Source: Planctomycetota bacterium | GTDB lineage: Bacteria > Planctomycetota > Phycisphaerae > Phycisphaerales > Phycisphaeraceae | Length of the DNA stretch: 64,000 bases | NCBI GenBank assembly: GCA_016350165.1 | Contig: CP066225.1 | Span: 2,604,001 to 2,668,000, forward strand | Reading direction: 5' to 3' | Part shown: piece after piece, positions 13,449 through 17,982 of the stretch | Layout of the letters: each line of letters starts with the position of its first letter | How positions within the stretch are numbered: position 1 is the stretch's first letter | Notes under the pieces: generated by a model | Databases searched by the model: none | What the model was told of the DNA's origin: nothing | What the model saw: the letters and a program-made list of their open reading frames with translations, nothing else | Made by a program: the position numbers and the translations under genes

Positions 13449-14777
13449 ATGATGTCTTCCAACTCCGCACGATTTATCAGTAACCCATTTCAACTCGGCG
13501 GCATTCGTACCGGCACACTCGACTTCCCACAACCGCAAGGTGCGCAGTCGACACGAGTTGCGTTTATTGATACAGGCAGTGGTTTGCGATTTACGGTTTC
13601 ACTTGATCGTGGATGCGATATTGTTGATGCGGTGTATAAAGATTGTGCGTTGGGGTATTTGACGCCGAATGGGTTGATGGGGAGGGCAGGACAGCAGACG
13701 GGGATGCAATGGTTGCGAAGTTGGGCCGGTGGATTGATGACGACATGTGGTGCGACGAATATTGGTGGGCCGCAGGAAGATCGCGCGTGGGCAGAGGGTT
13801 TGCACGGCAGACATAATTCATTGCCAGCGAGCATATTAGAAATAAAAAATCCAAATTTACGTGGCGACCTCGGGCATACAGATTGTGCGCGCGAAGACGG
13901 TGTGAAATCAAAACAAAATGGTGCACACGGTGAAGGTGGGAAAACAGAACAAAACATGCGCGCAGATGCAGGTAGAAATGATGCTCAAACTGTGCGCGAA
14001 GAGTCGGGTGATTTGGGGGGCGATGGGAATGGATTGGGTGGGGGTGGTCATAATCTTCGTGAGTCGGGTGAGATTCATGGTAGCGCAAGTGATTGCGCTG
14101 CAAATGGTTATGGAGTCGGGTTGGCGGGGGATCGGTTGATGATGTTGCGGGCAAAGGTGTGTGATACGCGGATGTTCGGTCCGAGTGTAGAGGTGGAACG
14201 CGCCATTATGTGTGAACTTGGAAGCTCACAAATCATTGTGAGAGATAGAGTTACGAATGTTGGTAACGAGGTTGTGCCGCACCATTGGTTGTATCATTGC
14301 AACATGGGATACCCGCTTTTGTCGCCTTTGGACAGTGAGTTGGTACTGTCAGGGCGGGTGGTAAAGCGATGGGGGACGGTTGAAAATTTGCCGGAAATTG
14401 ATGATATTAAAAGAGTTACGGATGTGCGTTCGGATCACGCGGGGAGTGGAGAAGGCGGGATGATTATTGAGCCAGCGGGAGAGACTGCGGTGGTGGGGGT
14501 TGTGAATTCGGCGAGGGGGATTGGGCTGCGGATGGAGTTTCCGACTGTGGCGTTGCGGCGGCTGGCGGTGTGGCAGCATTTTGGTGAGGGGTCGTATGTC
14601 TGTGGTATTGAACCATTTACGGGTTCGTTGTGGCATGATGATTATGAAACTGAGGAGGCGAAACGGTGGTGGTTGGAAGCTGGTGAGAGTCGGGATTATG
14701 AACTGAAGTTCAGTGTGGTTGAAGGGGATGATGAGCTTGCGAAGTTGCGCGGATGTGATGCGGCGCTGAGCGAGTAG
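13449..14777 (+). CDS. DUF4432 (aldose 1-epimerase-like) protein with low-complexity insertion
   Basis: A protein of 442 residues. The N-terminal and C-terminal parts match the DUF4432 mutarotase-like beta-sandwich family: GSGLRFTVSLDRGCDIVDA, GLMTTCGATNIGGPQEDRAW, GLHGRHNSLPA, VVPHHWLYHCNMGYPLLS and GIEPFT. The family is usually about 80 residues shorter. The excess is a Gly-, Asn- and Asp-rich stretch from about residue 138 to 220 that looks like an insertion between two core strands. It follows the sugar locus and may supply the right anomer. Base composition shifts from C-rich to G-rich near 13.55 kb, inside this gene. Confidence 0.8.
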   Translation: MMSSNSARFISNPFQLGGIRTGTLDFPQPQGAQSTRVAFIDTGSGLRFTVSLDRGCDIVDAVYKDCALGYLTPNGLMGRAGQQTGMQWLRSWAGGLMTTCGATNIGGPQEDRAWAEGLHGRHNSLPASILEIKNPNLRGDLGHTDCAREDGVKSKQNGAHGEGGKTEQNMRADAGRNDAQTVREESGDLGGDGNGLGGGGHNLRESGEIHGSASDCAANGYGVGLAGDRLMMLRAKVCDTRMFGPSVEVERAIMCELGSSQIIVRDRVTNVGNEVVPHHWLYHCNMGYPLLSPLDSELVLSGRVVKRWGTVENLPEIDDIKRVTDVRSDHAGSGEGGMIIEPAGETAVVGVVNSARGIGLRMEFPTVALRRLAVWQHFGEGSYVCGIEPFTGSLWHDDYETEEAKRWWLEAGESRDYELKFSVVEGDDELAKLRGCDAALSE

Positions 14778-14840
14778 GAAATGCGTGTTTGGTTGAGGGC
14801 GATTTGCTAAATGCTTTGTAGGGCAGGGGCTATTTTGAAT

Positions 14841-14859
14841 ATCTAATGCACGATTAGAT
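14841..14859. repeat. CTAATC palindrome copy 1
   Basis: ATCTAAT-GCACG-ATTAGAT, a perfect inverted repeat 64 bp after the DUF4432 stop codon. Confidence 0.7.
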
Positions 14860-15380
14860 ACAGAATGCGCGCACGTTTGTGATGTGGTTGCGCGCAAAAA
14901 TTTCGTGTGAAAATTGATGTTGGATTGTTTTAAGTGTTGCGGCTGTTTATGTTTGTGCTGATTTAGAGGCGCGATTTGGTGAAAAAAGTTTTTGGTTAGA
15001 AATCGATCAAAATGAACAGAAACGGTCAAGGAATCGTTAACTTTGGTCAGAAATGAGCTAAAAATGGCTAGAAAACCAAGTTTTGATTTTTTCGTGCGCG
15101 CCCACGGAAGTTGGGTTTAGGTTGTAAGCATTTTTAGTTGTACTGCTTTGGTGTAGTCGAATTGCTGGGTCCTCTATGAGGCCGGACTGGCCATTGAGGT
15201 GTGAGGTTGTTTAGGTTTGTTTGGGGTTGAGGTTTGTGGGGGTGTGCTGGTGGTTGTTTCACTAGAGCGTATCGTCGGTTGAATGACAGATATAGTTCTG
15301 TTGATCAATCTTGGCGAGTCGTTGGTTTGAGATGTGGATGCGGTTGGTTAATGAGGTGTTAGAGTGTCTGGTTAAATGTA

Positions 15381-15395
15381 CTAACCATGAGTTAG
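15381..15395. repeat. CTAATC palindrome copy 2 (CTAAC..GTTAG variant)
   Basis: CTAAC-CATGA-GTTAG, 18 bp beyond the stop codon of the small membrane protein gene on the minus strand. Confidence 0.6.
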
Positions 15396-15413
15396 ATTGT
15401 AGTTGAGGTTGTA

Positions 15414-15614
15414 TTATGGATTGTGGCTTTGGCATTTTTTGTTGCGGATGTAATGGATGAGGATGATGAGGGTGAATAGTAGGAGTGCGTGGAGGAAGAA
15501 GATTAGGCTGATGATGTAGGACCAGAAGTGGCCGTCGGTTGAGACGAAGCCGATTATGCCGATGAAGGCCAGCAGAAACATAACCATGGTGGCGATTTTG
15601 GTGTTGTGTGGCAT
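15414..15614 (-). CDS. small two-helix membrane protein
   Basis: From the ATG at 15614 the product is 66 residues with two membrane helices (MVMFLLAFIGIIGFV, then IISLIFFLHALLLFTLIILI) joined by a short loop, and a basic C-terminus. A longer in-frame start at 15716 adds 34 polar residues with no clear value. No family is recognised. The 3' end lies next to a CTAAC..GTTAG palindrome. Confidence 0.45.
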   Translation of the reverse strand: MPHNTKIATMVMFLLAFIGIIGFVSTDGHFWSYIISLIFFLHALLLFTLIILIHYIRNKKCQSHNP

Positions 15615-15770
15615 GATGAAGATTTGTCGAAAGTGAGTGTGTTTGTCTAGTAGCGAATATACATTATCTTGTGTAGGTTTGAATTGTGGTTGATGGTATT
15701 GGGGAATGTTATCCAAAAAATCAGTTGAATGGTTTTAAACTTTGTTGTTAGAAATTTTGGAGTGTTTGAA

Positions 15771-16471
15771 TATGGAGTGGCAAAAATTAGATGAAAGGAT
15801 GAGGGGGTTTGAGATTGATCGGCGAATTGGTGAGGGGTATTTGGTTGCGAGATGTGTTTGAAGAAGCTATTCGTTTGTTTGATAAGCATAGTGGATTTTA
15901 TGTTGGGGTTTATTATCATCAGAGTGATGAGATATCGCTTTTATTTTCGTATGCGAATCGGAAATTTTTGAAGCGTAAGGTAGAGAAATGGGTTTCGGTC
16001 ATTGCATCTGAATTCACGAAGTATTTTAATTTTGCTTTGCGAAAACAGGGTGAGTTTCAATGTGATGATGTGGATGGGTTGGCTACATTTGATAGTCGGT
16101 TGGTTTGTTTGCCGAAGTGTGATGATGCTGTTGATTATTTCGATTGGCGACAGGAAGATGCGAGAAGGAATTGCATTTCATCTTATGCCTATTGGGCGCT
16201 TAGAAAGATGGGGCATGGTGGGAATGAAGCGCATGAAGTGATGTTGGGGATGCGACGTGATCGGAAGATGGTGTTGGCGACTGAAGGATTGGGTGTTGAT
16301 TGGGAGGATGTGAAGGATGGAGGATTGTCATGGCAATATCACGGCTAGTATTTGGCAAATACAGTTGAGGAGCGAGAAGGATTTAATCCAGTAAAACAAG
16401 AAGCAACGCAGTATCAGAGGCGCATTTTGAAGGTAGTTGATGAACTACCATTGTATGAATGTTGTGATTGA
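15771..16471 (+). pseudogene. Thg1-like (tRNA-His guanylyltransferase-like) pseudogene
   Basis: Three pieces of one ancestral protein can be read. From ATG 15771: MEWQKLDERMRGFEIDRR up to GYLVAR. After a frame change: RDVFEEAIRLF, VYYHQSDEISLLF, FDSRLVCLPK and DWRQEDARRNCISSYAYWAL. After an in-frame TAG at 16346-16348: EGFNPVKQEATQYQRR up to ELPLYE. This order matches bacterial Thg1-like proteins, which add nucleotides 3'-5' to tRNA. The segment normally holding the metal-binding RxDGRxF motif is absent at the frame change, implying a small deletion of roughly 20-25 codons. The enzyme cannot be functional in this form. The middle fragment alone would be 179 residues from TTG 15809. Confidence 0.8.
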
Positions 16472-16481
16472 TTGTGATCAT

Positions 16482-16507
16482 AAAAAAACCATCCGTGAGA
16501 GGATGGC
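16482..16507 (-). terminator. intrinsic terminator of the phosphodiester glycosidase gene
   Basis: CCATCC/GGATGG with a 6-nt loop, followed on the minus strand by seven T residues. Confidence 0.75.
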
Positions 16508-16545
16508 TTTGTCTATTTTATGGTTAGGTTGTTTTGCGGAGTGGG

Positions 16546-17982
16546 TTATTTACGGTTGCGGCAGAGGAGGGCGAGTGATGAGAGTGAGAGAAATGCGATT
16601 GAGGCTGGTTCGGGAATGGCGAGTGATTCGTCTGAGTCATGAGTGAGGTTGTCGAGGTAGATGGTGCTGTTGTTTTCGCCGTAGAGTAGGATGGAGTCGA
16701 TGGAGAATGTTGTGTTGTTGACTTCACCGTTGCCGACGAAGTTGAGCCAATCGTTGTTGTTGTTGAGGTTCCATTCGTAGTAATGCCACTCGCCGTCGGC
16801 GATGACGTCTTTCTTAATTGATTTTTCGAGGTCTGAGCCTTCGTCGATAGCGATGGCTATCTGTTGATTAGCATCGGTGGTTTTAGCCCATACGCCGAGG
16901 AAACCTTCGGCAGTGTATTTTGTGTTGTTTGCTGATGAGCCTGCACCTGAGAGGAAGCGGCAGAGATAGCCTGAGTCGTCGTTGTTTTTGTTGAGTTCGA
17001 GTTTGACGGCAGCGTGGCCGACGGCGGAGTCATCGGTGATGATTTGGTAGTTGGATGAGCCTGAGAGATTGTGGTTTGAGCCTGAGAGAGTGAGTTTGGA
17101 GTAGAAGTTGCCGAGGTTGTTGTGTTCGAAGTTGGCGATTTCAGTGTATGTGTTGTCGATGTTTGCGTAGACGCCCATGTTAGCGCCGACGGCGCGGTAT
17201 TTTTGTGAAGGTGTGTTGACGTAGTGTGGGTTGCCGTTGTTCATGGTGAGTTGTGTTGATCCGCCGCCGTCGAGATTGATAGCCCATGTTGCGCCGAAGT
17301 TTTTCATAAGAGTGCCGAGGTGTGAGAGTTTGACGCCGTAAGATTGGTCGGATCGTCCGTCGACAGCCATGACGATGATTTTGTTATCGACTTCGTTGTA
17401 TCCGATGGATGTGCGCGGGTGGATACCGGATTCGGGGTCGCCAATGACGTTGCCGTTGTGGACGATTGTTGCGGATCCGGTGACGGCGTTGTAGTAGTCG
17501 AAGGTATTCTTGCCTTTTTCGGTGACGAGTTCGACTTTGTTATCTTCGGTGATGTTGATGGCGGGCCAAATGGTGAATGGGAAGGTTGTGCCCCATGGCG
17601 AGATGAGTTTGCCGTTGGAAGCGAGGACGCCGTGGTTGTTGTTGCCGCCGGAGCCTTCTTCTGTGTAGAAGTATGATGTGTTGAATGCGATTTGCGCGTT
17701 GGCTTGATTCATGAAGTTGAGTGTTGTTTGGCGATCGGTTTCGCCTGGTCCCCAGAGATTGTCGGGTGTTGAGGTGAATGAGATACCTTGTGCGTCGAGA
17801 TCAATTTCGAATACATCGACGGAGAGGTGGCTGGTGTGCCAACCGAGTATTGGGTGTACGTCTTTTTCGCGTAGTTTGCTGTAGGTGACGCCTTCGAATG
17901 GGTTGCTGGTTTCCCATGCTTGTGAGGATGTGGTGGGGTAGAGAAGTGCGGCTGTGAGGAGTAGGTAGGTAGATTTGTGCAT
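16546..17982 (-). CDS. phosphodiester glycosidase (NAGPA-like) with PEP-CTERM
   Basis: The start at 17982 (MHKSTYLLLTAALLYP) gives a signal peptide and has AAAGG upstream; the longer frame to 18066 is not needed. The central domain shows the NAGPA/DUF2233 signatures: NTSYF, HPRTSIG, VMAVDGRS and INLDGGGSTQL. These enzymes cleave sugar-phosphodiester bonds, as in the human uncovering enzyme. A second beta-rich domain (about 290-440) resembles a carbohydrate-binding or LamG-like module. The C-terminus is a PEP-CTERM signal (IPEPASIAFLSLSSLALL, then basic residues), so it should be exported and processed by an exosortase, which is not encoded here. Confidence 0.85.
   Translation of the reverse strand: MHKSTYLLLTAALLYPTTSSQAWETSNPFEGVTYSKLREKDVHPILGWHTSHLSVDVFEIDLDAQGISFTSTPDNLWGPGETDRQTTLNFMNQANAQIAFNTSYFYTEEGSGGNNNHGVLASNGKLISPWGTTFPFTIWPAINITEDNKVELVTEKGKNTFDYYNAVTGSATIVHNGNVIGDPESGIHPRTSIGYNEVDNKIIVMAVDGRSDQSYGVKLSHLGTLMKNFGATWAINLDGGGSTQLTMNNGNPHYVNTPSQKYRAVGANMGVYANIDNTYTEIANFEHNNLGNFYSKLTLSGSNHNLSGSSNYQIITDDSAVGHAAVKLELNKNNDDSGYLCRFLSGAGSSANNTKYTAEGFLGVWAKTTDANQQIAIAIDEGSDLEKSIKKDVIADGEWHYYEWNLNNNNDWLNFVGNGEVNNTTFSIDSILLYGENNSTIYLDNLTHDSDESLAIPEPASIAFLSLSSLALLCRNRK

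Follow-up and report, generated by a model that had tools for sequence, protein, structure and literature searches.

A probable pseudogene of a bacterial-type Thg1-like protein in a planctomycete genome

Three in-order fragments of a Thg1-like gene

We found the remains of a gene for a Thg1-like protein (TLP) in a stretch of 64,000 nucleotides from contig CP066225.1 of a Planctomycetota bacterium (hereafter, the window). Whatever its origin, the remnant is very probably a pseudogene of a bacterial-type TLP. Three fragments, A, B, and C, lie in order on the same strand at 15772-16471 (Table 1). Fragment A translates as MEWQKLDERMRGFEIDRRIGEGYLVARC from the ATG at 15772, and a GGAG sequence is present at 15759-15762, 9 bases ahead of this ATG. 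Fragment B, with 164 residues, starts at a GTG that overlaps the end of fragment A, and fragment C has 40 residues.

Table 1. Coordinates of the Thg1-like remnant and of the hairpin that follows it
Feature	Position	Strand	Description
Fragment A	15772-15855	+	N-terminus; starts at ATG 15772 and ends with the R of what was the RxDGRxF site
Fragment B	15854-16345	+	Palm core; QSDEISLLF, FDSRL, and DYFDWRQ motifs intact
Amber codon TAG	16346-16348	+	In frame, at the V of the family's WQKRGV
Fragment C	16349-16471	+	C-terminal EREGFNPV...RRILKVVDELP; coding to 16468, TGA 16469-16471
Terminator-like hairpin	16485-16510	both	Between the remnant and the convergent phosphodiester glycosidase gene

Our TLP profile was built on 33 Thg1-family proteins encoded in genomes and plasmids of Planctomycetota, L032 and L033 having been dropped from the 35 rows collected. 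With hmmsearch, it was run against every six-frame segment of 15 amino acids or more in the window, 2315 in total. Fragments B, C, and A took ranks 1, 2, and 3, with E values of 6.4e-37, 8e-4, and 1.1, respectively. Fragment A is thus not significant by itself, though it is the third-best of the 2315 segments; it aligns with the N-termini of TLP relatives, and we accepted it because of where it lies, how it starts, and how it aligns with the Bacteroidales sequence 'DRTMLNGIYMVARLDGHGF'. The Pfam Thg1 family (PF04446) matches fragment B with an E value of 6e-13 and 49.3 bits (cut-off 29.2), while the match of Thg1C (PF14413), a domain cut by the TAG, stays below its cut-off of 26.3 (E value 1.1e-4, 22.8 bits). 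Fragments A and C, each searched alone, matched no Pfam family. The SDE of the second metal site is present in fragment B, within QSDEISLLF. The best match among solved structures is the Thg1-like protein 4kgk (E value 2e-11), which we take to be the TLP of Bacillus thuringiensis, and the highest identity of the remnant to any TLP compared is 42-44%. Translation, profile ranks, and alignment hence bear out the sequence-only reading of this DNA, which had described a decaying Thg1-like gene in three in-order pieces.

A deletion and an amber codon interrupt the gene

The lesions were mapped in an alignment to 108 reference TLPs, from which viral rows and L009, L013, L026, L152, and L179 were left out; L032 and L033 stood outside the references and were kept for ranking only. 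Fragment A is readable as far as 'YLVAR', with the R codon at 15850-15852; the aligned sequence in Bacteroidales is 'YMVARLDGHGF'. The deletion junction lies at about 15850-15857 (+), where about 22-25 codons are missing and the frame changes; the shift between the frames implies a loss of 2 modulo 3 bases. The lost stretch runs from DGRxF to about PFDxRFRD and includes a metal-binding aspartate and a conserved Thr-Lys, so that the first metal site, RxDGRxF, is gone. In the B. thuringiensis TLP, D30 and D75 hold two Mg ions, according to PMC3701042, and the equivalent of D30 falls in the deletion. With one of the two metal-binding aspartates deleted, no activity would be expected from this sequence. 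The loss of RxDGRxF and the frame shift thus stand as first described, and the junction moves about 25 bases to the right of the earlier position, 15826-15832. The amber codon at 16346 had been said to split off the C-terminus, and it is indeed an in-frame TAG with fragment C and a TGA behind it. Owing to the frame change and the TAG, no single continuous frame runs through the C-terminal domain.

Fragment B also carries a loop insertion of about 11 amino acids and a short insertion before WQ, and fragment C stops short of the C-termini of its relatives. The remnant agrees with the references at 41 of the 52 columns conserved in at least 95% of them; of its 11 mismatches, 3 are at the junction and coincide with a sliding of fragment B by the aligner. 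This is lower than any intact reference, the lowest of which (L008) agrees at 44; the two motif-less TLPs, L032 and L033, agree at 32 and 36.

An open frame of 164 codons arose in 1 of 20,000 draws of a first-order Markov simulation with the composition of fragment B. The codon likelihood of fragment B is best in its own frame (-18.0 versus -60.6 or lower in the other frames) and is negative in all six, making it uninformative in absolute terms. We infer that fragment B was coding until fairly recently. That it is open over 164 codons means that the decay is recent or that fragment B is still under some constraint.

L032/L275 (5247-5996) and L033/L276 (4910-5680) are Planctomycetota Thg1-family genes with intact frames from which both metal motifs are gone, replaced by RLEVRRF and GPE in one and QLEGYRF and DEE in the other. 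Judged by these replacements, they are candidate TLP pseudoenzymes. No partner kinase was found beside either gene. The neighbours are phosphoglucomutase and penicillin amidase genes in one genome and, in the other, ClpP and nucleoside phosphorylase genes on one side.

Neighbourhood of the remnant

The region 14700-16700 contains 3 terminator-like sites, versus 1.2 expected in shuffles. The downstream glycosidase gene has a relative with 76% identity in G001, a genome of the same genus. A comparison of the window's first 45 kb with 38.9 kb of G001 around this relative showed similarity in the glycosidase gene and in roughly 110 bases ahead of it, and nowhere else; the upstream DUF4432 gene had no G001 match at an E value of 1e-10, and there was no Thg1 match anywhere in G001. 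In the middle of its domain, the DUF4432 gene (13449-14777) encodes about 80 residues rich in Gly, Asn, and Asp that are absent from the relatives listed, whose matches stop near residue 140 and resume near 226-240. The gene is followed by about 630 bases without a recognised gene (14778-15413) and a small membrane-protein-like frame on the minus strand (15414-15716) with sub-threshold Pfam matches only. Three window proteins were compared with defence systems and gave no match.

The usual neighbour of a TLP gene is an AAA_33 P-loop kinase, Pfam-typed on two loci. We counted kinases on the same strand and within 600 bases of the TLP gene, at loci chosen by similarity to the query. The genome-contig set had a kinase at 54 of its 76 loci (4 more with short flanks were excluded) and the Planctomycetota set at 25 of 31 (2 excluded). 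For plasmids the count was 1 of 3, and for viral loci 4 of 78, again with 2 excluded. Three TLPs (L031/L113, L034/L140, and L036/L143) belong to both the G-genome and the genome-contig sets, and these counts overlap slightly. The kinase is upstream of the TLP gene in 53 of the 54 genome-contig loci and in all 25 Planctomycetota loci. Among the nine nearest Bacteroidales loci, four have a kinase and five have none. Next to the remnant, a comparison of 14778-15771 with the open reading frames of 196 TLP loci yielded no kinase remnant at an E value of 0.1. One TLP-partner kinase used as a query against the whole genome found nothing at an E value of 1, in a search without a positive control. The genome has nine AAA_33 matches, the best with 34.0 bits, and the true partner in G503 scores 34.6, so the general model cannot separate a partner kinase from others. 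Nucleotidyltransferase-like genes of one family are found within 600 bases of the TLP gene and on its strand at 7 of the 196 loci; only the one at L139 (1132-1914) was typed as RlaP (PF10127, RNA repair pathway).

Pseudogene, assembly error, or amber readthrough

The host genome is a single contig of 5,234,020 bases and is 95% complete. A search for an intact copy elsewhere, as the sequence-only reading had proposed, found no second Thg1 match in the 5.23 Mb up to an E value of 10. The tRNA-His encodes G-1, opposite C73 and before the acceptor stem (read by eye), and a TLP gene is therefore unneeded for G-1 here.

Two independent lesions in one gene support a pseudogene, to be set against the open frame of fragment B and the weak score of fragment A. 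Were the deletion and the TAG consensus faults, the gene would be intact in the organism; survival of the second metal site and of the long open frame would fit this, but the two lesions are of different kinds, and in fragment B conserved sites are changed in excess and several insertions keep the frame. Nor do consensus faults typically take the form of a gap of some 70-75 bases, and we regard an assembly error as improbable. Still less probable, in our view, is that translation still starts at an internal GTG or TTG and yields, from fragment B, a truncated TLP that has no catalytic activity but binds RNA or nucleotide in a new role; the intact frames of L032 and L033, both without metal motifs, hint that such things can happen.

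The TAG could instead be read through, and for this there is a precedent: PMC6471195 describes an amber codon, encoding pyrrolysine, inside the Thg1 gene of Methanosarcina acetivorans. The remnant shares the amber codon and differs in having a second lesion and in that no pyrrolysine system was found. The best PylS match in the genome scores 22.9 bits, where the cut-off is 178. RF00005, which could miss an unusual tRNA-Pyl, gave 45 tRNA matches, 43 of them over the gathering score; ARAGORN typed each of the 43, assigned a CTA anticodon to none of them, and called no tRNA at the two matches below that score. TAG ends the neighbouring DUF4432 gene and 6 of the 28 stop-to-stop frames of at least 300 codons in the window, not all of which are genes. 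A TAG within the G001 glycosidase match precedes the likely start of that gene and hence is no sign of readthrough. Readthrough would, moreover, leave the first metal site missing. We therefore rejected amber decoding, which would be exceedingly unlikely, and a pseudogene remains our preferred reading.

Distribution among relatives and origin

None of 60 sampled relatives (1 of the same genus, 35 of the family, and 24 of the order) had a Thg1 match over the PF04446 cut-off; sub-threshold scores in five of them (E values 0.29-0.58) seem due to chance. The class sample contained 396 other genomes, 9 of them with a Thg1 match, and only one of the 9, G750, is of the same order. In the phylum sample, which overlaps with that of the class, 24 of 391 other genomes matched, two with the motif-less L032 and L033. 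The 60 relatives and the class sample thus gave no sign of an ancestral TLP gene in the family, and the proposed recent loss in this lineage, for which an intact copy in sister species was to be sought, finds no support. The description of bacterial TLPs as uncommon is fair but relative, as at least 549 relatives were confirmed, among 587 stretches listed, when 84,980 species genomes were scanned. Single-sequence pattern scans of genome and viral contigs found no close relatives. The 13 matching plasmid records include a best-scoring one with 38.7% identity. All 41 matching phage records have less than 60% identity (28.7-38.8% in the 20 listed), and in a quick tree that included 20 of the 80 viral rows, 16 of these form a separate clade; a recent phage origin was set aside on these grounds.

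We calculated a careful tree with 67 rows chosen from 194 and a quick tree with 136 of the 194. The careful tree placed the remnant with nine Bacteroidales TLPs (100/100, bootstrap unsettled) on an end branch of 4.81, compared with a median of 0.33, and the quick tree gave the same placement with an SH-aLRT of 93. AU tests did not reject grouping of the remnant with L011/L012/L030 (p 0.37) or with L008/L029/L041 (p 0.30), and both groups include Planctomycetota TLPs. As neither alternative is rejected, the donor is unproven. Lateral acquisition is nevertheless the likelier history, mainly given the sporadic distribution of the gene. Vertical inheritance, which concerns the history only and would fit a pseudogene equally, seems unlikely: a planctomycete ancestor would have had a TLP that most of the order lost, with the present copy as the last stage of loss. 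The TLPs elsewhere in the phylum and class agree with such a history, and the AU tests leave room for kinship with the two planctomycete-containing groups, but the gene was absent from all 60 relatives of the genus, family, and order, a single matching genome of the order appeared in the class sample, and the best tree favours the nine Bacteroidales TLPs, albeit with a very long branch.

Discussion

The Thg1 family catalyses 3'-5' nucleotide addition, and the tested bacterial and archaeal members prefer repairing truncated tRNA 5' ends, as stated in PMC6471195. Proposals that Thg1 reached bacteria by lateral transfer go back to 2010, when the PNK-TLP RNA-repair gene neighbourhood was described (PMC2904730). 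The remnant corresponds to the polymerase part of that neighbourhood, and no adjacent kinase was found here. With bacterial TLPs (PF04446 plus PF14413), such as that of B. thuringiensis (4KGK/4KGM), it shares the domain order, the SDE site, and the FDxR and DYFxWR motifs; it differs from them in lacking the first metal site and in having a broken frame and an amber codon ahead of the C-terminus.

Most likely, a single TLP gene entered the planctomycete lineage laterally, and its kinase partner never came along or was later lost. The gene would then have lost constraint and been killed by two lesions: the deletion, which took the first metal-binding aspartate and a conserved lysine and broke the frame, and the amber mutation, which cuts off the C-terminus. 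Acquisition would thus have preceded decay, and function would presumably have been lost in vivo.

The remnant leaves the view of the TLP family unchanged. It adds another case in which a bacterial TLP, a protein with a still unsettled role in bacteria, was gained and lost sporadically. This bacterium, whose genome encodes G-1 of tRNA-His, could dispense with the TLP gene.
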